The notes below the pieces were generated by a model. The model had not been told where the DNA came from, did not search any database, and saw nothing but the letters and a program-made list of their open reading frames with translations. The translations under genes were made by a program, and so were the position numbers. A stretch of DNA of 27,311 nucleotides from a virus: positions 1 through 27,311 of IMG/VR virus record IMGVR_UViG_3300005511_000062; one strand, 5' to 3'. Positions within the stretch are counted from its first letter, which is position 1. Every line of letters starts with the position of its first letter. Positions 6,370 to 27,183 of this stretch are shown here, piece by piece.

Positions 6370-6843
6370 TTATTGGTGCCATCTGCTGGCCTTGTAATCG
6401 CTGTGGGTGAATCCGTAGAGATACGCGTCTCGTCCCTCTCCCAACAGGTCTCGCATCAGTCCCTCACGGACGTGACCGAGCTTTTCATGCATATTTATCG
6501 CTGGAACGTTGTCCACCGACACCCCCATTGAAAGCCGCAAGCGCGCATGCGTGACGAACACGTGGTCGTACACAGCGCGAAAGAAAGTGCGGCTTGCCCA
6601 ACGGGTGGTCTGATCGCTGGCAATCGACCCCTCAACGCTGGTATGCGTCCAGCGGTTCAACACGACTACCGCCAGAGGGGTAAACGTGCCATTCGGTTCG
6701 GTCTGGATGTAGGAGATGCAGCGTGCGAGTGGATCGTTCTCGAAGTCGCTGCGTTCGCCGATAACATCGCTGGCCCACTTCAACAAGTAGGGCTTGGTGT
6801 GGTAGTAGACAAAGCGGTTAGACAACTGGACCCAACTCCGCAT
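6370..6843 (-). CDS. GNAT-family N-acetyltransferase
   Basis: This 157-aa protein has a GNAT-like order: two beta strands (AVVVLNRWTHTSVEGSI, residues 58-74), the helix that normally holds the CoA-binding loop (QTTRWASRTFFRAVYDHVF, about 78-96), then strand-helix VSVDNVPAINMHEKLG (about 108-123) and GHVREGLMRD. These enzymes move an acetyl group from acetyl-CoA to an amine. The canonical Q/RxxGxG/A loop is degenerate here (QTTRWASR). The ATG at 6843 overlaps the tail gene by 26 bp. A TTG at 6825, about 10 nt after GGAG, is an alternative start. It is embedded among virion genes, so it may modify a virion or host protein; the substrate is unknown. Confidence 0.65.
   Translation of the reverse strand: MRSWVQLSNRFVYYHTKPYLLKWASDVIGERSDFENDPLARCISYIQTEPNGTFTPLAVVVLNRWTHTSVEGSIASDQTTRWASRTFFRAVYDHVFVTHARLRLSMGVSVDNVPAINMHEKLGHVREGLMRDLLGEGRDAYLYGFTHSDYKASRWHQ
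6492..6499 (-). promoter_or_regulatory. GATAAATA promoter-like octamer inside the GNAT gene
   Basis: The minus strand reads GATAAATA, one of eleven (C/G)ATAAATA sites in the window. It lies in the GNAT coding frame (codons GCG ATA AAT) and 140 bp upstream of the 452-aa virion gene start. It may be fortuitous, since it is farther from a start than most members. Confidence 0.35.
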
Positions 6844-8440
6844 AGCTGATGTCTGTGCCCACCCACATGATGTCGTCGTTGACCGGGAATGCGATTGCTA
6901 CGCTCCCACAAGTGCCGACACCACGAATGCCTTGACCAATGTTGATTGTGTTTGCCCCATCCGCCCAAGTGGCTTGATCCCACTTGCCGCTGTCCCATGT
7001 GTTCCCGTTCGGGTAGCTGGAAGCAGCGCTGTTCATCGGAGGTGACAAGTCGTATTCGACGTTGAAGCTCAGCTTTACTTCAAGCTGCGTCGTTGTCGAA
7101 ACGATGTTGGGGCGTGCACGGATGTACTTCTTTTTCAGTCCGGGTGTGCCGAAGTTGTAGAACGCTTGCTGTGCGCGTCCGATGTAACGGGTACCGCCCG
7201 TGCCGTCGAAGTTCACGAGGTCTTTGTGCCCTACGTCTGCCTTTGCCACAAAACCGTTTGAGCCGAAGAACAGTTCGTCGTTGAAGACGCACCACGACTG
7301 CGCGGGTACACCGTCCCAACGCGACCACGCATGCATGATGGTGTTGTAAACGAACTGTGTGTTCTGGTCTGGGTTTGCTGCCGGGACGTTGAGGATCAGC
7401 ATGTTGCTGCCCGCGTACGGCATTACTTCCCAGCCCCTTAGAGAGCCCACGGAGCGTGCCTGTGCGGTAATTTCCTTGTCGATCAGCAACGAGAACGAAA
7501 CGCTGTCGTCGTTGCGGTTCGCCTTCATGTACAGGCTCAGGGGCTTCAAGCCCTCTTTGCACAGGTACAGCACGTCGCCCTGAAACTGCGTCAAGCAACG
7601 GATGCCAAGAGGTTCTGCCAGCTGCCAGACACCCATGAGGCTCCAGGTCGTTGCATCTGCGGGGTTCTTGCCCTGATACAGCGCTACGTCGCCTGCACTG
7701 GACACGGCAACCAACATGTTGTTGATGCCCGTGCTGTTGTCTGTGCTCCATGATGCGAGTGCGCGCAAGCTGCCGCCGCGTGGGAAAGATGGGCCGAAGT
7801 CGAACCCGAATGCTTCACCACCCATGCTGTCGATGGGCATGTAGAAGGCTTGCGTGCTGTTCTTGCGGACGATCCAGATACGACGCTGATGCGTCATGAC
7901 CTGTGACCAATCCGACAGGGACGGAATGCTGCCCGTTTTGATCTGACCCGGGGCGGTCGGTGTCGTTGCGAAAGAGAACGATGACCAGCCTGACGAAGGA
8001 CTGTAGAAACGCGCTGTGTCTTCGCCATTGCAAGCAACCAAGTAGTTGCCGCCGTTGGTAGTCATCGTGACCGACTCGAAGTACGGGGAAAGCAAGCCCG
8101 TCACAACAGGTGTGGGGTTGCTGACGCTCGTTGTCACGTCGTAGATGCTGGTGCCCGCTGCACAGAAATTGCGGTCATCCGCTTTTGTCTGGCCTTTGTA
8201 TCCCATCCACGAACTACCACGCCCCGTCAGACCGATTGCAGTCTTGATCGAGCCGCGACGGCCTGTCAGACCCTGCGGTGTCGCGTTGAGATTCGTGCAT
8301 GTGATCGCGTATGAAACGTCCATGCTTGCGTATGGATCGCGAAGGTTCAGACCCTTCGTGGGCGCACCTATGGACTGCGATTGCAGATGCTGGCGCTTAG
8401 GGACACGCTTGGGGCTGGTAGGCTTCTTGTACATTGCCAT
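6818..8440 (-). CDS. Tail hub / packaged-DNA stabilisation protein, P22 gp10-like
   Basis: This 540-aa protein is rich in beta structure, with many Gly, Ser, Thr and aromatic residues. It has propeller-like repeats such as FYSPSSGWSSFSFATT and VYNTIMHAWSRWDG, and QRRIWIVRKNSTQAFYMP. Its size, composition and place directly after a gp4-like adaptor fit the podovirus tail protein that closes the portal channel (P22 gp10 family). Its ATG follows the TAA of the adaptor gene with no gap (TAAATG), so expression is coupled. MAMYKK offers a second ATG two codons later. The C-terminal 26 bp overlap the GNAT gene. The structural role is well supported by synteny; the exact family name is inferred. Confidence 0.65.
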   Translation of the reverse strand: MAMYKKPTSPKRVPKRQHLQSQSIGAPTKGLNLRDPYASMDVSYAITCTNLNATPQGLTGRRGSIKTAIGLTGRGSSWMGYKGQTKADDRNFCAAGTSIYDVTTSVSNPTPVVTGLLSPYFESVTMTTNGGNYLVACNGEDTARFYSPSSGWSSFSFATTPTAPGQIKTGSIPSLSDWSQVMTHQRRIWIVRKNSTQAFYMPIDSMGGEAFGFDFGPSFPRGGSLRALASWSTDNSTGINNMLVAVSSAGDVALYQGKNPADATTWSLMGVWQLAEPLGIRCLTQFQGDVLYLCKEGLKPLSLYMKANRNDDSVSFSLLIDKEITAQARSVGSLRGWEVMPYAGSNMLILNVPAANPDQNTQFVYNTIMHAWSRWDGVPAQSWCVFNDELFFGSNGFVAKADVGHKDLVNFDGTGGTRYIGRAQQAFYNFGTPGLKKKYIRARPNIVSTTTQLEVKLSFNVEYDLSPPMNSAASSYPNGNTWDSGKWDQATWADGANTINIGQGIRGVGTCGSVAIAFPVNDDIMWVGTDISYAELGPVV

Positions 8441-9145
8441 TTAGTTCCCCAGACCCGAACCCGGGATGTTGCAGCCGTCGATCATTCGGAATCGGCTGGA
8501 CGGGTACAGATTGCCGGGCGCACCGTCACTGCTTTGCACCGTGTCCAGCAACGCGTTGTATTCCGCAAGCGTGTTCGTGGTGTCCATCTCCTGGGAGTCT
8601 TGCCACTTCACTTTCACGAGTGCCGTTACTAGCGCATCGTCAAACACGTACATGTCTGAGTCGCCCGTGAACGTGCGTTTGCGCACGAAGTCACCCGGGT
8701 TGATCGCGTAGTAACCGCTGATGTATTCAAAGCTGATCTCCTGCGCGCTTTGTGGCGTGGGAGTCAGGTAAAGCTTGCCGCCCTGAAAGCGGAAACGGGT
8801 CGTAGGACCGATGTCGATCCCACTTCCCTTGATGGTCGCCCAGTCGCGGGGCGACACAGCGCCGAACACCGGGGAGTTCTCGCTGTGGTTCCACATCGTT
8901 TCACCAATCAGACGTTCAAAGTCTGCTGGCAAAACGTAGCTGGCAACACCCGGCACAGTCTGGAACGAGTACAGGGTTTGCAGTTCGCTCCAGTCGTGCA
9001 ACTTGACAAGTCCCTTGCATGCACCGCGAATCAACGACAACATGAGTTGAACGTCGCTGCGGTCGCTGGCAAAGACCTGTTCTGTCATCGGCTGGGCTAG
9101 TTCGCCCAACGCTTGCGAGACTGTTTCAATGAGGGTGTTGCGCAT
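8441..9145 (-). CDS. Head-tail adaptor, P22 gp4-like
   Basis: This 234-aa protein has the pattern of the short-tail adaptor that docks under the portal. A helical N terminus (about 1-65, SDVQLMLSLIRGACKGLVKL) is followed by a beta-rich middle (YSFQTVPGVASYVLPADFER, then FRFQGGKLYLTPTPQS and ISFEYISGYYA), and the protein ends with helices. A strong AAGGAGG lies before the ATG, 12 bp after the 188-aa gene. Its neighbours (capsid-proximal gene upstream, tail hub downstream) match the order in P22- and epsilon15-like phages. The protein would form a ring that binds portal and tail hub. Confidence 0.65.
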   Translation of the reverse strand: MRNTLIETVSQALGELAQPMTEQVFASDRSDVQLMLSLIRGACKGLVKLHDWSELQTLYSFQTVPGVASYVLPADFERLIGETMWNHSENSPVFGAVSPRDWATIKGSGIDIGPTTRFRFQGGKLYLTPTPQSAQEISFEYISGYYAINPGDFVRKRTFTGDSDMYVFDDALVTALVKVKWQDSQEMDTTNTLAEYNALLDTVQSSDGAPGNLYPSSRFRMIDGCNIPGSGLGN

Positions 9146-9157
9146 CGCTCAGCCTCC

Positions 9158-9824: not shown

Positions 9825-10793
9825 TTAGTTGGACAAGACACCTTGCAGACCTGCGTTAGAGCAAGTCAGGTTGCCGGCCCAGACCATGATTTCGACCTTC
9901 GCGTCTTGCGCGTAAGCGATGCGGTTGTCCAGCTTGGAGAAGTTACGATCCTTGTGGGTACGGAACTTCAGGTACTTCGTGTTCAGCGAGTACAGAACGC
10001 CAGCGGGGATACCGTTGGTGTCAAACACAACTGGCACACCCTTGAACATCAGCGTGTCGAAGCCAGCTTGCGCTTGCGACGTAGAGCTGAAACGTTGCTG
10101 GGCAATCAGCGTGGATTCGTAAATGCCGTACAGGTCAATGCCGGTAACCATCAGGTTAGGCTTGTCATTAGTACGCACTTGTGACATGTACAACGCATTC
10201 ATCTGTGCAACGATGTTCGTTGCGTCCAGCGTGCCTGCGAAGTCAGTACCAGCGCCCTTGCGCTTCTTGTTGCGCCAGAAAGCCCACGTAGCGCGGTCAA
10301 TGCCACCGTATGTGCCGGTTGCGTTGCTGACCGGAACGGCAGCAGCCAGACCCGTGATGGCCTTGCCGGAAGTACCGGTGCCGTCGCCGTAGATCGAAGC
10401 GCTGATGATGTTCATCAGGGTGCTCTCTGCGACTTCGAGGCGTGCGTCGAGCAAGTCGATCATCGCTTCTTTGCCGCTGTTCTGGAGTTCTTCCAGACCA
10501 GAGATCACAACAGGCGCAGCAGCTTGCTTCAGGCCGTAAGTAGCGGAGCTAATCACGTCTTGTGCAGCGGTAGCCAGAGTGTCGTAACCGGAGTAGAAGC
10601 CACCGTTGCCGTTTTCGGCGAACGACAGTTCTTCCATGATGGTGGAGCCACCGCTGACCGTCGCATTCTTGATGTTGCCGATGGTGCGGAGAGCTTGAAG
10701 CACTGCGTTGTGCTTGGTAACGTTGTCAGCGACTTCCTTTTGACGATTTTCAATAGTCGTCGCAACGATGTCGTTTAGATTTGGAAAAGCCAT
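9825..10793 (-). CDS. Major capsid protein
   Basis: This 322-aa protein has the look of HK97-fold coats of epsilon15/BPP-1-like podoviruses. A helical N terminus (IENRQKEVADNVTKHNAVLQ) leads into a Gly/Ser loop with an EELSFAENGNGGFYSGYDTL segment. There is a long helix (GLEELQNSGKEAMIDLLDAR), an A-domain-like middle with LMVTGIDLYGIYESTL, and a C-terminal WAGNLTCSNAGLQGVLSN segment typical of these coats. It follows the scaffold gene, as expected. GGGAGA lies before the ATG. It has a dedicated leader with an octamer promoter and a hairpin, and a strong terminator behind it, so it is set up as its own high-level transcript. Confidence 0.8.
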   Translation of the reverse strand: MAFPNLNDIVATTIENRQKEVADNVTKHNAVLQALRTIGNIKNATVSGGSTIMEELSFAENGNGGFYSGYDTLATAAQDVISSATYGLKQAAAPVVISGLEELQNSGKEAMIDLLDARLEVAESTLMNIISASIYGDGTGTSGKAITGLAAAVPVSNATGTYGGIDRATWAFWRNKKRKGAGTDFAGTLDATNIVAQMNALYMSQVRTNDKPNLMVTGIDLYGIYESTLIAQQRFSSTSQAQAGFDTLMFKGVPVVFDTNGIPAGVLYSLNTKYLKFRTHKDRNFSKLDNRIAYAQDAKVEIMVWAGNLTCSNAGLQGVLSN

Positions 10794-10989: not shown

Positions 10990-10997
10990 TATTTATG
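10990..10997 (-). promoter_or_regulatory. CATAAATA promoter-like octamer for the capsid gene
   Basis: The minus strand reads CATAAATA in the gap between scaffold stop and capsid start, 197 bp before the capsid ATG. It is non-coding and lies immediately upstream of the leader hairpin, which makes it one of the most convincing members of the set. Confidence 0.6.
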
Positions 10998-12377: not shown

Positions 12378-15300
12378 TCCCCACTCCCTTGATTGCGTCT
12401 CGAATGCGTTGACGCATCGCAAGGTTTCTCTGCTGGGCAAGGAAATCAGCAACCATCTGCACTTCTTCGGCAGTGATATTTATGATGGGAAAGACGAAAG
12501 GCTCCACGCTCATTGGCGGAAGCTCAACGGTCTCATCTGCCGCTACTGGGGCCGTTTCTGTTTCGACAACAACGGGCTTCGGGTCGATCAGGTCTTCAAC
12601 GATCTTGCGGCGCTTCTCGCCGCGTTCACGATGCACCTTGGGGTCTTCCACCACATAGCCACCGCCTCCAAAATCGGGCACTGCCGGGGCATTTCCCGTG
12701 TTCAGCTCTGCCGTTTGTGTGAAGGAGACGTTCTGCGTGTACGAGAGAGCCCTAGGCGTCGTCAACGCTGCTGTCTGCGTCAGGTCAATGCTTTGCGTGT
12801 ACGACAGCGCCTTGGGGCTGGTAAGCGTCACCGCTTGCGTCAACGAGATGGGCTGGCTGTACGCGAGGAACTTAGGCGTTGTCAGTGCTGCTGCCTGCGT
12901 AAAACTAATGACCTGGCTGTAGCCCACCGTTCCGGCAATGGTCAAGGATGCGGACTGGCTGAAGTCAACCGTCTGCGCATAAGCAAGCATCTTCGTCACG
13001 GTCAGCGCTGCCGCCTGCGTAAACGACACGTCCTGCGCGTAAGCAAGGGACTTGGGCGTTGTCAGCGCCGCTGCTTGCGAGAACGACACCGATTGCGCAT
13101 AACCCAGAATCTTCGGGGTCGTGAGTGCCGCTGCTTGGGAAAAGCCAACGGTCTGCGAGTAGCCGATTGACTTCCACGTGTTCAGTACCGCTGCCTGCGT
13201 GAAGCCAATCGATTGGCTGTAACCCACGTAAACAGGGGGCGTTGCGTAGCTGGGAGCGCCGTGCGGGAACTCGGTTTCAGAGGTCGTGAACGCGGCTGTG
13301 TAGCGCGCAACGCCATTCGTGATCCGAACTTCGTCAATTAAACCGTTGAAGCCATAACCAAGGTCGTAGCCCTGTCGCCCGATCACAAGTGCGGGTGCGG
13401 TCTGGTTGTAGTTCACGGTGTTGTTCACGGTGGCGTACAACTGGCCGTCGAGGAAAATCCTCAACTTTCCGCCGGTTCGCGTCACAACTGCTTGGTGCCA
13501 GTCTCCGTCTGCCCACGAATGCGTGCCTGCCTCGATGTAGTTAAAGTCCGCGTCGGTGTAGAAGCCGATGCCACTTCCAAATCCACTAAGGTAGATTTGC
13601 CACCCTGCGGTCATGTTTGAGTCGAGGAAGTCGACCAAGATCTGACCACCGCTTGAGCTGTTGGGTTTGAAGTCAACTTCAATCGTGAAGTCACCCGTGC
13701 CGAACCTGAGGTCATCGAGGTTCGTTGTTGACTTGATGTAGTCGTCGGTTCCGTCGAGCGCAAGGCTCGCTGATCCCATGATTGGGGCTGTGGTGCTGAG
13801 TGCTGCGCCGTTGTACGCGGTCCAGCTTCGGCCCGTCTGGTCAAGCATCGTCGTGCTGCCGTTGGTGCCGTTGAAATGCAGAGCCGCAACAACGTTGCCC
13901 CAGTAGGGGTCGGTCGCGACGACCGTGCCACCCGTGTAGCTCACGCTAACTGTGATGCTATCGACGTTCGCGACCCGGTTCGCGCCCGTACCGTTGCCGA
14001 TGGCACGGAAGCTCGGACCGAAGTTCGGATTCTTAATGTCGGCGGGAGTCCAGGTCGTTCCCCACAGAAAGGTCGCGTTGCCGTAAACAATCGATGTGTC
14101 AGTGGTGCCCCAGTTTGTCGAGGTCGCAGCCAGATTTGTACCGACGCGCGTTCCAGCTTTCATTAGCTGGACGGTGTTGTCTCGCACGTTGCCCGTAGTT
14201 CCACCAGAATACTTGCGCTCGATTGACAAAGAGATGCCGGTGATCGTTGCATCATCTGGGATGCTGCTGAAGTCGTACCCAGTAATGTTCAGGTACGGCA
14301 TGTTTGCCGCAGTAGTTGACGTGGTGTGAGTCGTGTAGTTGTTGTCGCTAGCTAGGCCATTCGACGGCGTGGCCCATGAGACAGTTCCGCCCGATGTTGC
14401 CGCGCTTGTTCCGGTCTTTGGGCCGACCGTAATAGGCGGATCAGACCAGTAGAACTTTGCCTCGATGCAATCGAGACTTGTTGTGTTCGAGCCGAACGTT
14501 GAATTCTGGGTCCAGCACACGCGAAATCGAGTTGAGTTCGCAATTACAGCGCTGTAATTCTGCGTATTAAGGTTTGTCGATGCTCCACCCGTTACTGCGC
14601 TTGTCGTGGACGGCAAGTTAAGAGGCGCGAGCCCAAAGGTGCCACCGGTTGGCTCGTAGATCACCGGTTGAAGGGTCATGCCCGAAGCAGTCGCCGAGCC
14701 GGTGATTCTGAACTCGATTCCCGCGAGAACCTTACCTGCCGGGAGATTGACTGGGTAGTAGGTCGTCAGTTGCATCATCGATGCAAAGCCGGACGTAATC
14801 ATCTGCGCGCTCGTGCCGTCGAGCGTCAGTACGTTCAAAGGGTTCGTCCATGCCGTTCCGCTAGACGTGCCAGCATCCGCGCCCGTGACCGCATGACGGG
14901 GCAAAATCCACCCACTGTCAGTGCCAGACGCCGCGTCAGGGGTGCCGTTGAACTCAACCAAAAGAGCCGCAACGTTCGATGAGAAGTTCGAGGTGTTCCA
15001 CTCATAGTCCCACACATCGGTTGTCTGGGTAACCATTGCGCCGTTGCTTCCCAGCGAATACCACTGGGCATCAGTTGGCGTCATGTTCGTGAACACGTAT
15101 GGGGCGTTCACGTAGGAGCCGTACGTGACGACGCCAACGCTGTTTGAGAACCCGCTTGCTACCTGCGCAACCGGCGCCGTTGTGTTGACCCCAGTTGCGC
15201 GATCGATAATGAAGCCTTGATCTAGGCCGGACGTGACGTTGAAGCTGACATTGCCTGACTTGCCTGACGTGCAGAAGCCGCCGTAGATGTACAGAGTGAC

Positions 15301-16257: not shown

Positions 16258-18612
16258 TTATTGGATAGTGCCGCTAATGTTGCCGTCGAGGTCCTTCGTG
16301 AACTTGAAGGATTGCTCAGGCAAAGGCGTGCTTACAGCGGTATTTATCGCCTGTTCGAGATTGGCTGCCATCTGGGCGTTCTGATCTTGAATCAGTGCGG
16401 CCATCTGGGACATGCGCGCGTCCATTTGCTGGAGCATGTTGGACACAAACTCGGGTGTTAGGTGTCGCGCGTGTTCTTCGGCCATGACGCCTTGAACTTC
16501 TTGCGTCATACCGTTCATGTCCACGTAGTCTTCCAACTTGTCGTCGGTGTTGAGGACTTGACCGGGTGCGGGCAATGTAGCGCGGGCTTTCAGCTTGGCA
16601 TCAAGCACCAGTTTCTTTTCTTCCAGCACCAGACGTTGACGCTCAAGCTCAAGCTTCATGATTGCAATCTGATGCTCTTGATCGACACGCTCTTTCTCGG
16701 CCTGTGCCTTGATAAGCTCTACCTTGGCTTCCGCGTCTGCCTTTTGCGCGTCAGTCGCCATTTTGTTTTGTGCGTCCTGTTGTTCGCGCTGTGCCTTGGC
16801 TTGGTCCTGCTGCATTTCGTGCTGCATCTTCTGCTGCTCCATCTGCATGCGGATTTCTTCGGGACTTGGCTTGGGTGGCTGCGGGTTGTCGCGTTGCTGC
16901 TGCGCTTGCTTTTGCAGGTTGCGCACTTCTTCATCGACAACGCCCAACAGGCTTTCGCTGCCCTTGAACTTGCTCGCAGCCATGCGGAATGACTCAAGCA
17001 AGATGCGGCCGACTTCGGGGTGTTCCTTGGCTGCAACCAGACCTTGATTCACGAACTGGCTCACGCCCATCAGGAACTCGGTTGCTGCTGCCTTGTCTGC
17101 TGTCTGGTCAGCGACTGCCATGCTGTCGGCCTGCACCTCGATACGAAACTCTCTCGCGCCAGCATCTTTGAGAAGCTGGACAGCCTGTGGCACATAGCGC
17201 ATGTCTTCGTCGTACAACTGACCGCAGCGATCCATCAAACGTTGCGGGTCGTACTGCTGGCACATCAAGTGCGCTTTCAGCTTTAGAACACCGGACACGA
17301 ACTCACCGATTTGGCGTTGCTTGTCCACGATACGAGTGATTGTGTTGCTGCCCTTCATCTGCTCCGCTTGTGCGGTCACGTAGGGCTGTGCCATGCTCTT
17401 GGTAATGTCCGTGATGCCCGTCAGTACCTCGATGTCATGCATGACGCCCGCGCGTGCTTGCAGCACCTGTGAAAGCGTCGTCGCGTATTCCGCAATGGGC
17501 GCAAACTGCACTTGGCTTTGAACGCCCTTGTCTGCAAGGTTCTGTTCCCACTTCGCAGCCGCGATCATGAGACCGTCGCCGTTATTGGAATCCAGTAGCT
17601 GTTTCAGTTCTGGAATCTTCCCGTTGTACACACCGCTTGCGCGGATCAAGCCGATGAGCTTGGAAGCGCGGTTGTTCAACTGGTTCAGCAAGTTGTACTG
17701 GTCTTGATGCAACACGTAGTCGGGCTTCGGGACAAAGCTGTGCGTGCTGGTGTTGGCAATCAGCGGCTTGGGGCACGGGAAAAAGTTGGGCAAATGTAGG
17801 AAGTCATCGCGCTCGTCCAGCAGTTCTGGTGCTGACTTGCACATCCAATAGACCTTCTTGTCCAGCTTGTTCCAGATTTCCCAAACTTCAGCTTCCATCA
17901 GCAACTGGCCGTCATTGCTTTCGAGGTCTTCACCGAAGCCGATGGTGTCCGCCTTTTCTTCACCGAAGCGGGCCTTCAAGGCGTCGTAGGGCAGAAACGT
18001 GCGACGTGCAACCCACTGCGCTTCGCTCCATGTGCGGCATGGGCCAACAAGGAAGTCGTCCCAGTTCACGTACTCTGTGGGGGTCTGTTCATCGACAACG
18101 ATCGGATCGGGTTCAACCAAGTTGCCGAACTCGTCAATGTCGTCCGTCAGTTGTGGATCAAGTTCGGTTGTGAGGTCGTAGCGCTGCCACGTCACACCCA
18201 GACCAACGACCAAGTAGTCTTTGACGACGTTGCGCAACGTCTCGTGCATGTCGTCCAAGCTGTAGTCGAACTTCATAGCCCGACCAAGGATCAAGCCAGC
18301 TACGCGGCCAATGGCATCGTTGGGGTCCACGTTGCGGCGGCTGACATCGGGCTCTGGCGGCCGTGCGTACAGCATGTTCATCAGCATGTTGGTGTTCGTG
18401 TTGAACACGTTCATGTTGTTCAGACCGTCCGTGGCCGTGCGGTCTAGGTCCAGGTACTTCTTGTAAGTGGCACGGGCTTGGTTCTTGTACTGCCCCCACT
18501 TCTTCTCAGCTGCGGCGATTTCTGCCATCCAGCGGCGTTGTTGGCCTTCTGGCGTGTCATCGAACTGACTGAGGCTCTTGATGCTTGCGCGAATTTGTTC
18601 TTGTCTTGACAT
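16258..18612 (-). CDS. Portal protein, P22/epsilon15-like
   Basis: This 784-aa protein has the size and order of podovirus portals, downstream of terL. The N-terminal part contains GQYKNQARATYKKYLDLDR and NTNMLMNMLYARPPEPDVSR. The core includes YVNWDDFLVGPCRTWSEAQW and EVWEIWNKLDKKVYWM, typical of P22-type portals. Residues about 380-440 hold QVLQARAGVMHDIEVLTGIT and an EQMKGSNTITRIVDKQRQIG helix. Residues about 556-690 are a long Gln/Glu/Lys coiled coil, probably the barrel. The portal forms the dodecameric DNA channel. AGGAAAGG precedes the ATG, and terL ends 8 bp upstream. A CATAAATA octamer lies 89 bp upstream, within terL. Confidence 0.8.
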   Translation of the reverse strand: MSRQEQIRASIKSLSQFDDTPEGQQRRWMAEIAAAEKKWGQYKNQARATYKKYLDLDRTATDGLNNMNVFNTNTNMLMNMLYARPPEPDVSRRNVDPNDAIGRVAGLILGRAMKFDYSLDDMHETLRNVVKDYLVVGLGVTWQRYDLTTELDPQLTDDIDEFGNLVEPDPIVVDEQTPTEYVNWDDFLVGPCRTWSEAQWVARRTFLPYDALKARFGEEKADTIGFGEDLESNDGQLLMEAEVWEIWNKLDKKVYWMCKSAPELLDERDDFLHLPNFFPCPKPLIANTSTHSFVPKPDYVLHQDQYNLLNQLNNRASKLIGLIRASGVYNGKIPELKQLLDSNNGDGLMIAAAKWEQNLADKGVQSQVQFAPIAEYATTLSQVLQARAGVMHDIEVLTGITDITKSMAQPYVTAQAEQMKGSNTITRIVDKQRQIGEFVSGVLKLKAHLMCQQYDPQRLMDRCGQLYDEDMRYVPQAVQLLKDAGAREFRIEVQADSMAVADQTADKAAATEFLMGVSQFVNQGLVAAKEHPEVGRILLESFRMAASKFKGSESLLGVVDEEVRNLQKQAQQQRDNPQPPKPSPEEIRMQMEQQKMQHEMQQDQAKAQREQQDAQNKMATDAQKADAEAKVELIKAQAEKERVDQEHQIAIMKLELERQRLVLEEKKLVLDAKLKARATLPAPGQVLNTDDKLEDYVDMNGMTQEVQGVMAEEHARHLTPEFVSNMLQQMDARMSQMAALIQDQNAQMAANLEQAINTAVSTPLPEQSFKFTKDLDGNISGTIQ
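16341..16348 (-). promoter_or_regulatory. GATAAATA promoter-like octamer near the 3' end of the portal gene
   Basis: The minus strand reads GATAAATA (portal codons GCG ATA AAT), 102 bp before the 127-aa gene start. It could drive the fibre module separately from the portal. Confidence 0.45.
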
Positions 18613-18620: not shown

Positions 18621-20108
18621 TCAGATACGAGTGGGACGACTAGGGCCACGACGCTGTGATGCGTAGAGTTGGTCGAGCGTGACGCCCAGTGGCTTCAACG
18701 TATTTATGCGAATCTTTGCGTCGTAGAGCTCCTTGCCCTTCTTGCTGGACAAGGGCTTGGGCGTTCGCTGTGATGACTTGCGAAGCAGCTCAGGTGTGAG
18801 CTGCCAAGCGCAGTACCGCACCATGTCCGCTGCATGGCTGTGGATGTCGTGGAGTGCGTCTTCTGCGAATACCTGCTTGTCGCGGTTGTACTTGCGGCTG
18901 TACGCCTTCAAATGCTCCACAAGCGCGTAGCAGCGGTCGTCATCGAAATACATTTGCGGCAGCATCTTGCGAACCGCGTGAATGCCGTCCTTGACGAAGT
19001 GGCGTTGCACTGGCTCAACGTCAATGCCGGTCATGTCCTGCAACTGCTCCAAAAGCGGCAGTTCAGCGACCGCGAACTCAGAGCGCGCATCCCATGGGAC
19101 GTACAGCGTTTCGATCTCGTATCGATCCCCGTTGGCATCGCGCATTTCCAGAAGCGCATCTGCTATCTCGCCCACCCACTGATTGCTTACCTGCATGAAG
19201 TCAACGAAGTGGATGTTTCCGCGGATTACTTGAACAATGCCGCATGCTGTGGCGTCACCCCGCCCGAAGTCGAAGAACGCGTAGGTGCGCGCCCCTTGGT
19301 AGTGCGGAACTGGCACCACATGCGTTTCGTACAGGTCTGAGATGTACTTGCCGTAGTAGCTGCCCTTGATTGCCGCATCAAAGCTGCATTCGTATTCCGC
19401 CGCGTACTCGTCGTCGTCCATTTCCAGACGTGCATCTGCCAGTTCTTCTTGAGACAGAACACCACTTTCGCTGGCCTTCACTTCGAGGTAGAACCAGTTG
19501 CCCTTGACGTTGAGGCGTGCTTTCTCGCGCTGTTCGTAGAACGCGTTGTGTCCTTTGGGCGTGCCGATGAACAGAACCCAGCCTTCGTAGTCCGAAAGCA
19601 TCGGGCGAACAACCGCTGTCCAGACCTCGCCCTTCATGTCGCCGTACTCGTCCAACACGATTCCGTCGAAGTAGCCGCCCCGCAAGCTGTCTGGGTCATC
19701 CGCGCCGTAAATCTTGATTCGCGCGCCGTTGTGCGGGAAGGTGACGCTCAGTTCACTTTCGCTGATCCGCATTCCCGGAATGTCCGCTACCGATTCCTTG
19801 AGGTAGTCCCAAGCGTTGTCCTTGGCCTGCGTGCGGAACGGGGCCACGTATGCATACCGGGGCGTAGCCGCGTCAGGACGGGGTGTGAATAGCTTGCCTG
19901 CTGCTTTTGCTTTAGCTGCGTTGCGGGCGTTATCGGCCTTCAAATTCTTCATCAGCGCACGAAGCTTCAGCTCGTGAATGCTCATGACTGTTTTGCCCCA
20001 ACGTCGATGGCAGACCACTAGGCCGAACCGCTTGGTGCGGTTGTGAACGCGTACCGCTTCGCGTCTCGGTGTGTAGCGCGCGGCAATGACCTTTGTGTTA
20101 CTCGTCAT
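18621..20108 (-). CDS. terL: Terminase large subunit (ATPase and nuclease)
   Basis: This is a 495-aa DNA-packaging motor. The Walker A-like CHRRWGKT is at residues 33-40, Walker B IVLDE at 150-154 and the coupling motif FIGTPKG at about 180-186. The RNase-H-like nuclease domain starts at AFFDFGRGDATACG (Asp280, Asp285), with a second acidic site at PWDARSE (Asp340) and a late block HSHAADMVRYCAW. All main domains are present and the length is normal. The ATG overlaps the end of terS by 11 bp, and GAGGG lies upstream. It works with the portal to package concatemeric DNA. I cannot tell cos from headful packaging from the sequence alone. Confidence 0.9.
   Translation of the reverse strand: MTSNTKVIAARYTPRREAVRVHNRTKRFGLVVCHRRWGKTVMSIHELKLRALMKNLKADNARNAAKAKAAGKLFTPRPDAATPRYAYVAPFRTQAKDNAWDYLKESVADIPGMRISESELSVTFPHNGARIKIYGADDPDSLRGGYFDGIVLDEYGDMKGEVWTAVVRPMLSDYEGWVLFIGTPKGHNAFYEQREKARLNVKGNWFYLEVKASESGVLSQEELADARLEMDDDEYAAEYECSFDAAIKGSYYGKYISDLYETHVVPVPHYQGARTYAFFDFGRGDATACGIVQVIRGNIHFVDFMQVSNQWVGEIADALLEMRDANGDRYEIETLYVPWDARSEFAVAELPLLEQLQDMTGIDVEPVQRHFVKDGIHAVRKMLPQMYFDDDRCYALVEHLKAYSRKYNRDKQVFAEDALHDIHSHAADMVRYCAWQLTPELLRKSSQRTPKPLSSKKGKELYDAKIRINTLKPLGVTLDQLYASQRRGPSRPTRI
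18701..18708 (-). promoter_or_regulatory. CATAAATA promoter-like octamer upstream of the portal gene
   Basis: The minus strand reads CATAAATA inside terL (codons CGC ATA AAT), 89 bp before the portal ATG. It would give the abundant head genes their own transcript. Confidence 0.5.
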
Positions 20109-20538
20109 CGTCGCCCTCTAGAGGGGCGCCACCCTCAACGTCGATGGTGTAGATGCCATGATCGAGCGGGCCAGCGGGCACATTGGTCTGAATCACAATC
20201 TGCGTGCCACTGGCACTCTTGCCACTCGCAAGCGCTTGGGCCATGGCAGTTTTGTATTTCAGGTACAGGGGGTAGAACAGGTGTTTGTTCTGGTCTCCCC
20301 ATACAGCCATGCCCTCCAGGTCTCCCAAGATGCTGAACGTCGCGTCCAGCATGATCCCGGCGTGCTCCTGATCGCGCTTCTTGTAGCGGTACGCCTTGAT
20401 CCGCTCCGCGATGGGCAGATCAGCCAGCACAGCCAGCCCGTTTTCCTGAATGTCCTTGTTGATTTCCTCAAGGCGCTTGCGCTCGGCCTCAAGGCTTTCA
20501 TCCATGGGGGCTAGCTGCCCCTTCTCGTTGTTATCCAT
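20098..20538 (-). CDS. terS: Terminase small subunit (by position)
   Basis: This 146-aa protein lies directly upstream of terL and overlaps it by 11 bp, the normal terS position. It has a charged helical N terminus (DESLEAERKRLEEINKDIQE), a central helical region (ERIKAYRYKKRDQEHAGIML) and a strongly acidic C terminus (EGDDDE) that could contact terL. I see no clear helix-turn-helix, so DNA binding is not shown. The Shine-Dalgarno GGAGGTGAT is near perfect and well spaced. A CATAAATA octamer lies 60 bp upstream. Confidence 0.65.
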   Translation of the reverse strand: MDNNEKGQLAPMDESLEAERKRLEEINKDIQENGLAVLADLPIAERIKAYRYKKRDQEHAGIMLDATFSILGDLEGMAVWGDQNKHLFYPLYLKYKTAMAQALASGKSASGTQIVIQTNVPAGPLDHGIYTIDVEGGAPLEGDDDE

Positions 20539-20559
20539 TCATCACCTCCGCCCCACGCT

Positions 20560-20567
20560 CATAAATA
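20560..20567 (+). promoter_or_regulatory. CATAAATA promoter-like octamer for the plus-strand HNH-like gene
   Basis: The plus strand reads CATAAATA in the terS/HNH divergent gap, 36 bp before the plus-strand ATG at 20603. With the opposite-strand octamer it forms a perfect 10-bp inverted repeat (20558-20567 with 20598-20607). Confidence 0.55.
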
Positions 20568-20597
20568 GCCGATGAGCAACTTTTGAGGGCTAGGTGA

Positions 20598-20605
20598 TAT
20601 TTATG
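20598..20605 (-). promoter_or_regulatory. CATAAATA promoter-like octamer for the terminase operon
   Basis: The minus strand reads CATAAATA 60 bp before the terS ATG. It covers the ATG at 20603 of the plus-strand gene. The two facing promoters would give transcripts with complementary 5' ends of about 20 nt. Confidence 0.55.
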
Positions 20606-20938
20606 AGTTCAAGTGACGAATCGGGATTCGTACCCGTAAGGGGCTGCGCGCCCTACGAAATCAACCGTCTGGGTGTGGTGCGGTCGAGTACAACCAAGAT
20701 CGAACGCAAGTGGCAACAGATTGCGGCGTGCTGGGCAGTGGTGCTGTACGTGGGATTGCCTGCACGACCCAGCACCAAATACATTCACCGCTTGATGGCC
20801 GAAGCGTTCTTGGAGCGCCCAAGTGGCTGGACGGAGAAATGGAAAGCGGTCTTCGTCAACAACGACAAGACAGACATGCGACTGGAGAACATTGCGTGGA
20901 TGGACGCACGACGCGCCTACAAGCATGTCCGGTCTTAA
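20603..20938 (+). CDS. HNH/NUMOD4-like protein lacking the catalytic histidine
   Basis: This is a 111-aa protein from the ATG at 20603, preceded by AGGTGAT. Residues about 18-33 (YEINRLGVVRSSTTK) resemble a NUMOD4-type DNA-contact segment. YIHRLMAEAFLERP and VNNDKTDMRLENIAW follow, the layout of HNH homing endonucleases (normally VNHxDGxKxNNRxENLxW). The position of the metal/catalytic His in that block holds no His here, while the RLEN-W part is kept, so nicking activity is doubtful. It diverges from the terminase genes; HNH proteins beside terminases can take part in packaging. It may now be only a DNA-binding or packaging accessory protein, or a decaying homing gene. Confidence 0.55.
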   Translation: MSSSDESGFVPVRGCAPYEINRLGVVRSSTTKIERKWQQIAACWAVVLYVGLPARPSTKYIHRLMAEAFLERPSGWTEKWKAVFVNNDKTDMRLENIAWMDARRAYKHVRS

Positions 20939-21260
20939 GAAGGAAATCCAAAAGCAACTACGCGAACGGGGATTGCCAGAAGCGATGGCAAGTCAGGGAT
21001 TCGCTGACCTGGAGTTGCAGAACAGGGAACGTCTGGCTGTGATCCGAGAACGATGCAAGGTCGTTCAAGAAGCCGCGATGCGGGAAGGTGTGGACCTAAG
21101 GTGGCGAGAACGGGAAGAACCCCTTTTCGCTACCGTGGACCAGATGCCCGAGTGGTACCACCTACTGCGCGAAGCAATCAAGAAGTGGAACTGGGACGCA
21201 AACGGCGGTATGAAGGTCAGTCAGGATCGCCGTAACCAACGACGACCCCGAAAGCGTTAG
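20925..21260 (+). CDS. Small basic helical protein, unknown
   Basis: The ATG at 20925 lies inside the end of the HNH-like gene (14-bp overlap), giving 111 aa. It is mostly helical and charged (MSGLKKEIQKQLRERGLPEA, then RERLAVIRERCKVVQEAAMR), has WYHLLREAIKKWNWD near the end and finishes with a very basic tail (DRRNQRRPRKR). A nucleic-acid-binding role is possible but not shown. The overlap implies co-expression with the HNH-like gene. Its stop overlaps the stop of the convergent 81-aa gene by 4 bp, with no terminator between. Confidence 0.55.
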   Translation: MSGLKKEIQKQLRERGLPEAMASQGFADLELQNRERLAVIRERCKVVQEAAMREGVDLRWREREEPLFATVDQMPEWYHLLREAIKKWNWDANGGMKVSQDRRNQRRPRKR

Positions 21261-22142: not shown

Positions 22143-22165
22143 TGTGGTTCTCCTGTTGGAACCAC

Positions 22166-22173
22166 TATTTATG
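22166..22173 (-). promoter_or_regulatory. CATAAATA promoter-like octamer of small-gene operon 1
   Basis: The minus strand reads CTTCATAAATAG, exactly 24 bp before the start codon at 22142. The same extended core and the same 24-bp distance occur at the second small-gene operon (24023). Confidence 0.65.
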
Positions 22174-22760: not shown

Positions 22761-23012
22761 TCAGCCTTTGTCACGTTCCTGTGCGTTCGCCAATGTCATG
22801 TTGTCAATCTCGTCGAGTGCTTCTTGAAGGCCACTGCCCATCAGCGCAAACAGTCTGGCTTTGGCTTCGTCCTCTTGCTTTGGCGTTGCATCAATGGGCA
22901 CCTGAATGCCGTTGTCGCCCACCCAGATGTAGCGCATACCTTCGTCTTCCATCCAGTCGTCGTTGTCGTCGTCTGGCAAGTAGCTGGGGCCATTCATTTC
23001 GTTTTCGGTCAT
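22761..23012 (-). CDS. Small very acidic protein, unknown
   Basis: This 83-aa protein is rich in Asp and Glu (YLPDDDNDDWMEDEGMRYIW), then VGDNGIQVPIDATPKQEDEA and a C-terminal helix (LFALMGSGLQEALDEIDNMT). The strong negative charge is like that of DNA mimics or inhibitors, though nothing proves this. It starts 2 bp after the 132-aa gene and is the last gene of a four-gene operon. No family recognised. Confidence 0.55.
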   Translation of the reverse strand: MTENEMNGPSYLPDDDNDDWMEDEGMRYIWVGDNGIQVPIDATPKQEDEAKARLFALMGSGLQEALDEIDNMTLANAQERDKG

Positions 23013-23014
23013 GG

Positions 23015-23413
23015 TTACTTGCTACCGTTCATGCCCAGACCGTCACCGAAGCGCAGTTTGAAACCCACAGCCGCTGATGGATCGAAGTCCATCCTGAAAT
23101 AGAGGTACGGGATGTAGTCATACTCATCCCACTGCCCGTTAAGTTCATAGCTTGTCGACCCGTAGACGTGCTCGACCCTAAGTTGCTTGCGCTCTGCAGT
23201 CACAAAAGCGCGTATTAGGGCATCGTCACCACAGGTCGTTATCAACCAGTCCACGTACTCGTCACAGCGTGCGCGAAACTTTGCGGTGGTTGCCGTTATG
23301 TCCTGGTTGTCCCAAATGCCGAGACTGCATCGCTGCTCGATCCCGCTAGGCAGGTTGTGGTGCCCCAAGGACGACAACAGGGGCGATGTGTAGGTGATGG
23401 GTTCGTAAATCAT
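23015..23413 (-). CDS. Small protein with FKLRF C-terminal motif, unknown
   Basis: This is a 132-aa protein. The middle has a helix (AKFRARCDEYVDWLITTCGD, then DALIRAFVTAERKQLRVE), the next part is YDYIPYLYFRMDFDPSAAVG, and FKLRFGDGLGMNGSK closes it. The FKLRF motif matches the endings of the 81-aa and 86-aa proteins in the other operon, followed here by a short extra tail. The ATG overlaps the TGA of the 93-aa gene (ATGA). Function unknown; probably a member of a small phage family that has duplicated. Confidence 0.6.
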   Translation of the reverse strand: MIYEPITYTSPLLSSLGHHNLPSGIEQRCSLGIWDNQDITATTAKFRARCDEYVDWLITTCGDDALIRAFVTAERKQLRVEHVYGSTSYELNGQWDEYDYIPYLYFRMDFDPSAAVGFKLRFGDGLGMNGSK

Positions 23414-23691
23414 TTTGTTCCTACCATAAATTCAAGCTGGGTCTTGTCTTGCTCGCTTGTGAATAGCAACCAGACCTCAAATGGCTGCTGCCAGTTGCGG
23501 AAAGAACCGGGCAGCGCCTTCCAAGTAAATTCCGGGCACCATCTAGGTACTACACCGCCCAATTGCTGCCTGACCAATGCCCTCCATGCCAGTGCTGGTC
23601 CCGCCTTTAATGCAGCAAGATGCCAGGCCCTTTCCAGTTCTGGGGTGGGGTTAATTTGCATTTTCAGCAAGTAATTGGCAATTGGAGTCAT
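23410..23691 (-). CDS. Small protein with hairpin-like C terminus, unknown
   Basis: This 93-aa protein has a helical first half (PTPELERAWHLAALKAGPAL, then AWRALVRQQLGG) and the ending FEVWLLFTSEQDKTQLEFMV, which resembles the hairpin ending of its neighbours with LEF in place of LRW. It overlaps both neighbours by ATGA, a sign of tight translational coupling. No family recognised. Confidence 0.55.
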   Translation of the reverse strand: MTPIANYLLKMQINPTPELERAWHLAALKAGPALAWRALVRQQLGGVVPRWCPEFTWKALPGSFRNWQQPFEVWLLFTSEQDKTQLEFMVGTK

Positions 23692-23999
23692 GCTTCGGTC
23701 AGCGTCTCCATCATTGCAATCTGCTGTTCCTCATTCCACATACCCTCGTATGCGGCTTGCATCATTGCCCTCAATAGCTCTAGATCGGTATTGCGCTTAG
23801 ACACTAGGCCGTCAATTGTCGCGTTGGTTTTTTCAACGGTTAATCCAGTTGGAATGAGTTGTAAATCTCGAAATTTTTCAAAGTCGTTGATAGCGCGGGT
23901 GTGTTCTTCAACTCGGGCTCGGCAATAGCGCCATACCTGTAGCAAGCGCTGGCTGTGTTCTTGGCTATTGGCGTAATGGGAAGGCATTGTTGTGGTCAT
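23688..23999 (-). CDS. Small helical protein, unknown; first gene of operon
   Basis: Two ATGs lie 6 bp apart (24005 and 23999). I choose 23999 because AAAGGA is only 2-3 nt from the first but 7 nt from the second, and because 23999 gives the same 24-bp distance to the promoter octamer as in operon 1. The product (103 aa) is helical: HSQRLLQVWRYCRARVEEHT, INDFEKFRDLQLIPTGLTVE, then LLRAMMQAAYEGMWNEEQQI. Two helices separated by a turn suggest a coiled coil. Function unknown. Confidence 0.55.
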   Translation of the reverse strand: MTTTMPSHYANSQEHSQRLLQVWRYCRARVEEHTRAINDFEKFRDLQLIPTGLTVEKTNATIDGLVSKRNTDLELLRAMMQAAYEGMWNEEQQIAMMETLTEA

Positions 24000-24022
24000 C
24001 TTCATTTCCTTTGTTGTCAGGC

Positions 24023-24030
24023 TATTTATG
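24023..24030 (-). promoter_or_regulatory. CATAAATA promoter-like octamer of small-gene operon 2
   Basis: The minus strand reads CTTCATAAATAG, 24 bp before the start at 23999. It lies directly after the terminator of the Abi-like gene, so operon 2 begins afresh here. Confidence 0.65.
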
Positions 24031-24052
24031 AAGACGGCAATTGCTGCATGCC

Positions 24053-24142: not shown

Positions 24143-24150
24143 TATTTATC
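24143..24150 (-). promoter_or_regulatory. GATAAATA octamer between the Abi-like gene and its terminator
   Basis: The minus strand reads GATAAATA, but the terminator at 24053-24094 lies between it and the next gene. It may be a relic, drive a short RNA of about 80 nt, or be chance. It is the least convincing intergenic member. Confidence 0.3.
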
Positions 24151-24168: not shown

Positions 24169-25224
24169 CTACATCCGCATCACGAGGCTCTTTGTCCACG
24201 ACATCGCAGCCTCGATGGTCCAGTCTGTCTGGGTGTCAGAGAGCTTGGGCATTTCAGCACTGCCCGGGCCGTGTCCCAGCGGATTGCGAATGTTCGTGAA
24301 GATCAGCTTCATTGCGTCGGCTTCCCATACTTCAACGAAGCGGCCATTCTTTGCCGACACAAGATTGTCGATAAATGCGTGCGCGCCCTTTTCATTACCG
24401 GTCGTCCAGCCTTTGCGGTCGCTGACGATCTTGATCGCGCTTTCTAAAGCCCGCACTGCATAGAACGCAGGGTCGCGGTCGTTTGACTCCTGCCGGTCTA
24501 CGGCTTCTTTCATGTCGGTGTCGACATTTGCCCAGATGGGGTCGCGGACCAATGCCCAGAAGGGTTCCGCGATCTGCTCTTCGATACGCTCGTCTTTGGC
24601 TATCTGGACAAAACCGTTGTGGTAGCTCAGCGGCACTTTCGCCTGTCGGAACCGCGTGTTGAGTTCCTCGCAGCAGGACTCCCAGATTTTTATCTGATTG
24701 TCGTGAGCTGACTTCAACATTCCGGCAAAGCTTCCCGTAACCACAATGCCGTGCCTTTTTGCGTTGAGCGCCTCACGTGCGTGCGCCGTGCGTACTGATG
24801 ATTCAGCTTCAGCGCTTTGCTTGTTCAACAACGCTTCCCGGTTTCTAAATGCGAGTTCCACAAAGCTTACCCGCTGCTTCATGTGCCGGTCCGCCTGCTT
24901 CTCGTCAGTGAGGGCCGCCGTCATCCATTGCTCGCATTGAAAGTCGAGTGTGTAGCTGCCCGAAACCCACGTTTTATTAGCGGTGTAGTACCCGTACACC
25001 TGGGGATGAAGCGACTTCACGCCCAATTCCATGCTCACGCGACTCTCTGTATCTTTCCACAGCGGTAGAAAAAGCTCGTTGACCTTATTCTGTGGGGTGT
25101 GGTACGGCATTAACTGCTCTTTGAGAATGCGCCACATCTGTACCAAAAGCGTCCGCTCTCGCTCGCCAACCTCTGTCCAGATTGGCCGTTCGTCGTAGCG
25201 CGTCGCGAAAATGTCGGTCAGCAT
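24169..25224 (-). CDS. Abortive-infection-like protein with C-terminal HEPN (Abi_C/AbiJ-like) domain
   Basis: This is a 351-aa protein. The N-terminal region (1-105) has FATRYDERPIWTEV, ERTLLVQMWRILKEQLMPY and KTWVSGSYTLDFQCEQWM, a style I associate with the N termini of Abi-type proteins, though I cannot name it. Residues about 110-155 form a charged coiled coil. The C-terminal part (about 250-351) has AVRALESAIKIVSDRKGW and then the HEPN RNase motif Arg313-x4-His318 in NIRNPLGHGPGS, as in Abi_C proteins. HEPN enzymes cut RNA, halting infected cells. A good AGGAG precedes the ATG. The gene has its own terminator and a LexA-type box 47 bp upstream, like a moron carried for defence against rival phages. 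RNase activity and defence are inferred. Confidence 0.65.
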   Translation of the reverse strand: MLTDIFATRYDERPIWTEVGERERTLLVQMWRILKEQLMPYHTPQNKVNELFLPLWKDTESRVSMELGVKSLHPQVYGYYTANKTWVSGSYTLDFQCEQWMTAALTDEKQADRHMKQRVSFVELAFRNREALLNKQSAEAESSVRTAHAREALNAKRHGIVVTGSFAGMLKSAHDNQIKIWESCCEELNTRFRQAKVPLSYHNGFVQIAKDERIEEQIAEPFWALVRDPIWANVDTDMKEAVDRQESNDRDPAFYAVRALESAIKIVSDRKGWTTGNEKGAHAFIDNLVSAKNGRFVEVWEADAMKLIFTNIRNPLGHGPGSAEMPKLSDTQTDWTIEAAMSWTKSLVMRM

Positions 25225-25270
25225 CGAAGTCTCCTGATGGGGGTGTCACTTTACCCGACGCTGCGCCAAC

Positions 25271-25288
25271 ACTGTATGTCCGTACAGT
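25271..25288. promoter_or_regulatory. LexA-type (SOS box-like) operator
   Basis: The site is a perfect palindrome, ACTGTA-TGTCCG-TACAGT, containing CTGT-N8-ACAG at 25272-25287, the LexA consensus of many Proteobacteria. It lies 47 bp upstream of the Abi-like start (minus) and overlaps the first ATG (25276) of the divergent plus gene. Either or both could be SOS-controlled; a phage repressor of similar specificity is also possible. Confidence 0.6.
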
Positions 25289-25638: not shown

Positions 25639-25668
25639 TTTCGACAGTTCAGGCCATGCCTGCTACGC

Positions 25669-26187: not shown

Positions 26188-26284
26188 GCCTCAATCTTAT
26201 TTCGACAAACGGGGCAAGGCTTCGTAAAATCGGGTTCGACGGCAAGAACATCGTTTTTTCCGTCTTAAAGCATCGATTTTGACC

Positions 26285-26386
26285 ATTGCGCTAAATACGA
26301 TGTACGCAATCTCGTCCGTTGCAAAAAGTTGATTATCCGTGCTACCGCACGTTGACGATCCCAGTAACGGACGAGGTTACTGGGAT
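26285..26386 (+). promoter_or_regulatory. Leader-like region with mutually exclusive RNA hairpins
   Basis: CTCGTCCGTTGC (26311-26322) can pair with GTAACGGACGAG (26364-26375), 12 bp with one G-U. The second partner also forms the left arm and loop of a perfect 11-bp hairpin (26358-26368 with 26376-26386). Only one can form at a time, as in attenuators. Only three Ts follow, so it is not a clear terminator. ATTGCG/CGCAAT arms (26285-26290, 26305-26310) flank the GCTAAATA. Confidence 0.4.
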
Positions 26387-26918
26387 TTCGTCATTACGGC
26401 GTCCCACCCAGTCACCCGACGCAAAACACCCCACAACTACAAAACAGATTTCAACTACGAGATCGCATCATCCGCAAACGTTAGGGTCGCCGAATAGGCT
26501 TGCAACCGGACGCAGTAGCGGTGGTACTCAAGGGTACGAAGCTTTCCAGAACAACTTAGCGGTTCTGGGCACAAAGGCAGGACGGCAGCTTTACTAACAC
26601 TAGAGCTTGAAGACTAAGCGGAGCCAATAAGCGAGGCATACGATAAGCAGGGGGTGTCCATGATGATGCAGGATGATCTAAAACCACAGCAGGGGGTTTA
26701 GATTAACTATGGCTGTTCGATCTTGTAGTTGATGAAATTCCTAAAGACGACTGACTGGCAGCGACACAAAACGCGATGAGCGTTTTTGGAAGCGAAGTCA
26801 GGAAGTCCCTTGCAGCGCGAAGGCGTTGCTAGGTGCATGTTGCTTTCGACCTGGCCTGCAAAGATTCATCGCGAATCTTTTCCGAAGAAGCAGCCATTTC
26901 TTGCTACACCTACGTCCT

Positions 26919-27036
26919 CAGTTGCCAGACAGGCTCACGAAGTCATCCCCTACGGGGGCGTCTGGCTCACTTCGTTTACCAGACGGGCTTACGCGCTACG
27001 CCGCCGCTGTCGCTTCGGCCACGCGCGACGCAACTG
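26919..27036 (+). other. Possible pseudoknotted RNA structure
   Basis: Stem 1 pairs 26924-26930 with 26960-26966 (GCCAGAC/GTCTGGC). Stem 2 pairs 26938-26944, inside its loop, with 26969-26975 beyond it (ACGAAGT/ACTTCGT). This is an H-type pseudoknot, with an inner CCCC-TACG-GGGG-type hairpin. A second CCAGAC (26979-26984) competes for stem 1. An outer CAGTTGC/GCAACTG (26919-26925, 27030-27036) and GTCGC/GCGAC (27009-27013, 27025-27029) could close the domain. Confidence 0.35.
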
Positions 27037-27175
27037 CTGACGCAGACTCGTTCTGGTTGAAGCCAGAAGACACGTGGTTGGTACTTGGCTGCCAGATGGC
27101 TGGTGAGTAAATCCGAAATTTTTGGCATGGCGAACGCGGAAATCAGCTGCTATTGAGCCTCGTTTCGTCTGTCTT

Positions 27176-27183
27176 CATAAATA
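27176..27183 (+). promoter_or_regulatory. CATAAATA promoter-like octamer inside a palindrome
   Basis: The plus strand reads CTTCATAAATAG, the same extended core as at 22166 and 24023. CTGTCT (27169-27174) and AGACAG (27183-27188) flank it as a perfect inverted repeat with an 8-bp spacer, so a repressor could sit over the promoter. It points rightwards to the terminator at 27264-27298. Confidence 0.5.

Follow-up and report, generated by a model that had tools for sequence, protein, structure and literature searches.

Late genes of phage T4 are transcribed from promoters with a −10-like element and no −35 element (PMC7892883), and late promoters of the form NATAAATA have been reported for S-PM2 (PMC2984593). 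Some T4 late genes are in addition gated by a hairpin, such that read-through RNA is silent and late RNA is translatable (PMC3014915, PMC2988022). A further single-element class, the gp36 promoters of phiEco32 (tAATGTAtA), gives starts 6–8 bp downstream and is read by the host RNA polymerase with a phage sigma factor lacking region 4 (PMC8948821). We analyzed the virus record IMGVR_UViG_3300005511_000062, a complete IMG/VR record consisting of a linear fragment of 27,311 bp (hereafter, the window), for the octamer VATAAATA (V = not T). We consider it likely that this octamer serves as the single-element late promoter in a lineage of small, podovirus-like phages that are temperate at least in part and related to Mx8 and BUCT555, that it is read with a phage-specified factor, and that it doubles as a translation gate where the leader is short. 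Our computations covered the presence, exactness, orientation and recurrence of the octamer and the predicted folds around it. The original prediction, made from the window alone, had proposed a T4-late-like promoter organising the late region and a sigma-like factor encoded by the phage; the computations support the single-element signal, while the sigma-like factor is unproven.

An exact octamer upstream of late genes

The eleven octamers named in the original prediction, nine on the minus strand and two on the plus strand, were each confirmed in position and orientation as follows.

6492..6499, minus strand: GATAAATA, within a GNAT-like gene, where it is read in frame as ATA-AAT; the 452-aa virion gene starts 140 nt downstream
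10990..10997, minus strand: CATAAATA, intergenic, 196 nt before the major capsid gene
12477..12484, minus strand: CATAAATA, 3′ end of a tail-fibre-like gene, 102 nt before the zinc-ribbon gene
16341..16348, minus strand: GATAAATA, 3′ end of the portal gene, 101 nt before the 127-aa head gene
18701..18708, minus strand: CATAAATA, 3′ end of TerL, 88 nt before the portal gene
20560..20567, plus strand: CATAAATA, 35 nt before the HNH gene
20598..20605, minus strand: CATAAATA, 59 nt before terS, facing the plus-strand octamer at 20560
22166..22173, minus strand: CATAAATA, 23 nt before a 127-aa open reading frame (ORF; 21759-22142, minus)
24023..24030, minus strand: CATAAATA, 17 nt before a 105-aa ORF
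24143..24150, minus strand: GATAAATA, just downstream of an AbiJ-like gene, 137 nt before the same 105-aa ORF
27176..27183, plus strand: CATAAATA, no ORF between the octamer and the end of the fragment

The distance from the octamer end to the next co-directional start codon was 17–196 nt for all 10 testable copies, where random placement would put 2.0 of 10 within 200 nt of a start. The earlier placement of octamers before gene starts was thereby borne out, while the individual gene assignments were corrected at 6492, 12477, 16341, 18701, 24023/24143 and 27176; the copy at 6492 lies inside the GNAT-like gene, that at 12477 precedes the zinc-ribbon gene, and those at 24023 and 24143 both precede the 105-aa gene. 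About 80 nt downstream of the octamer at 27176, a terminator-like hairpin with a short T run was seen by eye at about 27264-27299, a site that the terminator scan did not flag.

Dinucleotide shuffles of the window contained a mean of 0.21 octamers (standard deviation 0.43, largest 2 in 100) and a second-order Markov model expected 0.08 for NATAAATA, so that the previous estimate of about one chance copy was too high. In unbiased k-mer counting, ATAAATA was by far the most over-represented 7-mer of the window (11 versus 0.08 expected), and the base preceding it was C or G in 11 of 11 copies and never A or T. None of its 21 single-substitution neighbours was enriched in the window (0–1 copies each, versus 0.02–0.76 expected), and the ATAAATA core is therefore exact. 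The four octamers within genes were all in frame as ATA-AAT (Ile-Asn), although ATA is rare in the window, accounting for 12 of 342 Ile codons, 4 of which are those in octamers. Shuffles of equal codon use yielded a mean of 0.095 coding octamers, and 0 of 1000 synonymous shuffles reached the observed four. Given this enrichment, the placement and the rare ATA codons at the coding copies, the octamer is selected at the nucleic-acid level. Its ATAAATA agrees with the −10-like core of T4-type late promoters, and it precedes late (virion) genes on their coding strand, as T4 late promoters typically do.

Recurrence in one phage lineage

We collected relatives via the capsid, portal, tail and haem-oxygenase-like proteins. 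Most showed no octamer enrichment, the exceptions being L009, L063, G001, G773 and G774, diverged phages in which the octamer recurs with a bias to the late strand. L009 carried three plus-strand and no minus-strand copies (0.04 expected), L063 four and none (0.02 expected), G773/L284 ten and one (1.0 expected, log10 p −8.0) and G774/L268 six and none (1.1 expected, log10 p −3.1), and G001/L192 had 8 VATAAATA in 31.9 kb. Small contigs with two same-strand octamers each were found in addition. L009 and L063 share octamer sites before the zinc-ribbon, 174–190-aa and GNAT genes. The site before the zinc-ribbon gene is also found in the window, G001 and G773, and both in the window (12477) and in its G001 counterpart it lies within the coding end of the preceding gene (FPIINITAEEV versus YPPINITDDEL).

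A capsid tree separated the enriched phages and their closest kin from 29 others, including BUCT555 and Mx8, by a 100/99 split, the octamer side of which also contains eight close kin not labelled as enriched. This split in the wider set replaced a first capsid tree, in which four octamer phages had formed a clade by themselves (98/94). The octamer tracks one phage lineage across capsid identities as low as 53–58%, and related Pseudomonadota phages lack it.

We then profiled 43 sites from six genomes over 20 upstream bases. ATAAATA alone was common to all, its seven fixed bases reflecting the selection of sites as exact matches; T was avoided at −1 (2 of 43) and a pyrimidine was favoured at −3 (34 of 43). 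No conserved −35 element was found in these 20 upstream bases or, by eye, in 45 bases upstream of the window sites, which agrees with the absence of a shared −35 noted previously for the window.

Two other searches were set aside. Prophages of the lineage were sought in about 770 bacterial genomes with a tail-protein profile, and the loci examined around matches had no octamer enrichment. Private motifs of other families (GTTTAAAC palindromes, CGTGTAAAC and repeats) were considered as parallels, but their contexts were unlike promoters. In L030 and its kin (L028, L029, L038, L043, L044), the palindrome GTTTAAAC occurred in strong excess, with 13 copies in L030 versus 0.9 expected, scattered in genes. 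In L024, AGTTTCAT, CCAGTTTC and overlapping 8-mers occurred 22–23 times in 10.9 kb, probably as one repeated unit. A PAPS-reductase-like gene of G773 (22453-23208, plus; identified by eye) has CATAAATA near its 3′ end, kept in at least six relatives (L305, L308, L309, L317, L320, L268).

Predicted hairpins at short leaders

For each leader we compared the predicted fold of read-through RNA with that of RNA starting at octamer+6, using shuffles that keep the octamer and the start codon. In short-leader read-through RNA, the start codon or the region upstream of it was predicted to be paired, the 5′ arm being the octamer itself, the bases just before it or the first 7–8 nt after it. RNA from octamer+6 was predicted to be open or much less structured. 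All eight short leaders of the window, L009 and L063 passed singly (p 0.003–0.043; Fisher 1.2e-9), and none of four long-leader sites did. The predicted hairpins at window sites were as follows.

20557..20608, plus strand: read-through hairpin, octamer paired with TATTTATGAG over the HNH start codon; −14.6 versus −3.3 kcal/mol for octamer+6 RNA, p = 0.043
20535..20606, minus strand: read-through hairpin sequestering the terS ribosome-binding site; −26.5 versus −14.1 kcal/mol, p = 0.003
22144..22165, minus strand: hairpin GTGGTTC-CAACAGGA-GAACCAC between the octamer and the start of the 127-aa ORF; −10.2 versus −0.3 kcal/mol, p = 0.017
23997..24036, minus strand: read-through hairpin, octamer region (GTCTTCAT) paired with ATGAAGATG at the start of the 105-aa ORF; −12.1 versus 0 kcal/mol, p = 0.010

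The zinc-ribbon leaders of L009 (GAAGAGCA/TGCTCTTC) and L063 (CCGGGCA/TGCCTGG) form stems that pair alike and differ in sequence. As a positive control, T4 e, 49 and segB, which are known or implicated cases, passed with similar energies, and T4 genes 15, 18, 20, 22, 24 and 51 failed. A T4-type hairpin over the ribosome-binding site or start codon, lost in promoter-initiated RNA, is thus predicted here too, more weakly outside the window, L009 and L063. By analogy with T4, this modelled geometry argues for promoters, and it would imply a transcript start about 5–8 nt past the octamer.

The same hairpins could alternatively belong to an RNA element, in which AUAAAUA in the transcript, with the adjacent hairpin, is bound or cut by a protein such as a translational regulator or ribonuclease. 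At several sites the hairpin does start right after the octamer and end at the start codon, and a single strand sense relative to the gene would be expected of an RNA motif as well. However, the long-leader and intragenic octamers have no such hairpin, and because several 5′ arms consist of the octamer or of bases upstream of it, the octamer, taken as an RNA motif, does not hold a constant place relative to the structure. The avoidance of T at −1 and the restriction of conservation to the 7-mer resemble a −10-type element instead, and the identical geometry in T4 is that of a promoter overlapping a hairpin. We therefore regard an RNA element as unlikely.

Proposed mechanism and its weighing

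The promoter reading is supported by the exactness, orientation and position of the octamer, its recurrence in diverged relatives and the hairpin sequestering the ribosome-binding site. That it acts as a promoter, where and when RNA starts, how translation is affected and what kind of factor takes part are inferred. RNA polymerase, most likely that of the host, would be redirected by a phage-specified specificity factor and would open the DNA at the octamer, with RNA beginning roughly 5–8 nt downstream independently of any −35 element. The octamers along the late region, several of them in the 3′ ends of upstream genes, would each drive the nearest gene downstream in the same direction. Where the leader is short, the promoter would also act as a translation gate: in read-through RNA, the octamer or the bases just after it would be base-paired to the ribosome-binding site or start codon, blocking translation, and octamer-initiated RNA, having lost the 5′ arm, would leave the ribosome-binding site open. 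A start 5–8 nt downstream would explain the exactness, orientation and spread of the octamers, their intragenic copies, the lack of a −35 element and the 5′ arms that overlap the octamer.

Several points weigh against this interpretation. The fold test presupposes a start at octamer+6, the predicted hairpin geometry supports a transcript start near the octamer indirectly, and the testing was exploratory, with window sizes and the leader-length cut chosen after the data had been seen. Among non-octamer starts of the same phages, 5 of 31 reached p < 0.05, to be set against 8 of 8 at octamers, and background structure is therefore not nil; T4 inh, which is outside the cited hairpin list, passed too (p = 0.04). 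Nor is the gate universal. G001 passed at one of six short sites, and in G773, G774 and their kin it was mainly the terS leader that folded (p 0.005 in G773, 0.010 in L301, 0.030 in L310 and 0.10 in G774). In the terS leaders of G773, L301 and L310, the octamer is predicted to pair with UUAUUUA between a Shine-Dalgarno-like GAGG and the GUG start. The profiled sites derive from exact matches, and the survey of variants covered single substitutions in the window. Finally, the phage-encoded sigma-like factor of the original prediction did not emerge: no relative of T4 gp55 was found in 22 records including the window and G001, and no Sigma70_r2 domain in 26 records, the octamer genomes among them being fragments and G773/G774 lying outside both searches. 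These negatives are limited because the window genome is partial and such sigma factors diverge strongly. For G773/G774, nine early-region ORFs plus the gene next to terS were compared with Pfam, and no sigma factor was found.

Candidate readers of the octamer

A helical basic protein of 111–142 aa is encoded beside terS in the window, G001, G773, G774 and their kin, and in none of the other loci compared, of which about 75 had TerL with at least 1.5 kb upstream; its co-occurrence with the octamer may simply mark the lineage. Its model has five helices at a predicted local distance difference test (pLDDT) score of 76, and the fold had no significant match in PDB or BFVD. A match to sigma-28/FlgM at E 5.6 was discarded as noise. 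We tentatively entertain, as a possibility more doubtful than not, that the lineage evolved its own factor reading a lone ATAAATA independently of gp55, possibly this protein, and converged on the promoter-in-hairpin gating of T4.

The octamer might instead be read by an alternative host sigma factor and not by a phage factor, and no sigma factor was found in the phage records searched. We consider this improbable. The octamer follows a single phage lineage over wide capsid divergence and not the related phages of Pseudomonadota, and we know of no host sigma factor with a lone ATAAATA element.

Still less probable is recognition by a single-subunit RNA polymerase of the T7 type, encoded by the phage and specific for a short AT-rich promoter site. 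CATAAATA-G is similar to the TATA/initiation portion of T7/SP6 promoters, and a 578-aa protein of G001 (26958-28694, plus; L229:11959-13695), preceded by an octamer, has motifs that by eye loosely resemble polymerase motifs A, B and C. However, known T7-type promoters are much longer than an octamer, and if transcription began at the octamer end or beside it, the hairpins at 22172, L009:1601 and L063:2521 would retain their 5′ arm. Searches with the 578-aa protein gave no Pfam, PHROG or PDB-sequence match, and its single-sequence model, at pLDDT 37, was useless. Small Polaromonas plasmids and a Desulfovibrio phage encode weak homologues, one of the plasmid-borne ones next to RepA, and the plasmid homologues suggest a role in replication; as a T7-type polymerase candidate, the protein was set aside as replication-type. 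Just upstream of its gene in G001, a perfect 10-bp hairpin carries the octamer in its loop.

A DNA-binding site with no connection to transcription starts, such as an operator bound by a repressor or a signal for packaging or replication, would suit the high copy number and exactness of the octamer, but it is hardly credible for an asymmetric element that is consistently oriented to the downstream gene at no more than 200 nt from starts, and it would leave the hairpin geometry unexplained.

Genes of the window

The window comprises a late region and some small operons, with no early region, and no replication or transcription genes were recognisable in this 27,311-bp fragment. Its capsid, portal and TerL group with Mx8 and BUCT555-like phages. 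A megablast search of window positions 1-25000 against the phage collection and a TerL scan of IMG/VR found no near-identical relatives, and Rfam gave zero matches in the window. The genes referred to above are as follows.

4993-6351, minus strand: 452-aa virion gene
9825-10793, minus strand: major capsid gene (phrog_9953)
12024-12374, minus strand: zinc-ribbon gene
15856-16239, minus strand: 127-aa head gene
16258-18612, minus strand: portal gene
20098..20538, minus strand: putative terminase small subunit (terS), named from its position before TerL, with no database match
20603..20938, plus strand: HNH endonuclease gene (phrog_959)
20925..21260, plus strand: gene of the 111-aa helical basic protein beside terS, candidate regulator
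21759-22142, minus strand: 127-aa ORF
23688-24005, minus strand: 105-aa ORF

A haem-oxygenase-like gene (Pfam Haem_oxygenas_2, weak) stands among the virion genes at 4406-4993 (minus) of the window, L063:10283-10702 (plus) and L192:13388-13978 (plus), and the protein is also present in L225–L227, which have no octamer enrichment. An AbiJ_NTD4-domain gene (24169-25224, minus), a defence gene of the abortive-infection type, adjoins a late operon. The 127-aa ORF matched part of the capsid family phrog_9953 weakly (E 2e-4) and is perhaps a capsid-derived fragment. Directly before the plus-strand octamer at 27176, about 0.9 kb (26240-27170) had no convincing gene or Rfam match and is possibly a non-coding RNA.

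Comparison with known systems

Mx8 and BUCT555-like phages are the nearest cultured relatives by capsid and portal, with 54–55% capsid identity, a homologous portal and the same late gene order, but the stretches read showed no octamer enrichment and other k-mers lead there. The phiEco32 gp36 promoters are likewise single elements without a −35 in a podovirus; their sequence, tAATGTAtA, differs from the ATAAATA core found here, and neither the gp36 nor the gp55 kind of sigma factor was found in the records searched.

With the T4 late promoters (TATAAATA; gp55 with gp33 and gp45) and the cyanomyovirus NATAAATA, the octamer shares the seven-base core, the lack of a −35 element, the position before virion genes and the intragenic copies. 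The first-position T of TATAAATA is rare here (2 of 43 sites), whereas the cyanophage NATAAATA does not require it. Unlike T4, the phages described here have small podovirus-like genomes, some at least with an integrase, and no gp55 relative was found in the records searched. T4 e, soc, 49, I-TevI and segB and Aeh1 mobE likewise have a late promoter in or next to the 5′ arm of a hairpin sequestering the ribosome-binding site. That set includes an endonuclease gene, as does ours (HNH), but the genes with predicted gating here also include the late-region genes for terS, the zinc-ribbon protein and the GNAT protein.

The literature we found discusses ATAAATA-type late promoters of bacteriophages for T4-like and other myoviruses, and our results suggest that small phages of a lineage unrelated to T4 control their late genes by a T4-like switch. 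If this is true, the system would be compact, one factor should suffice for late transcription and the question of how small a late sigma factor can be would become directly testable. The same core and hairpin gate in podovirus-like phages of about 40 kb with integrases would then mean that small temperate phages either acquired the T4 late strategy by transfer or reinvented it.

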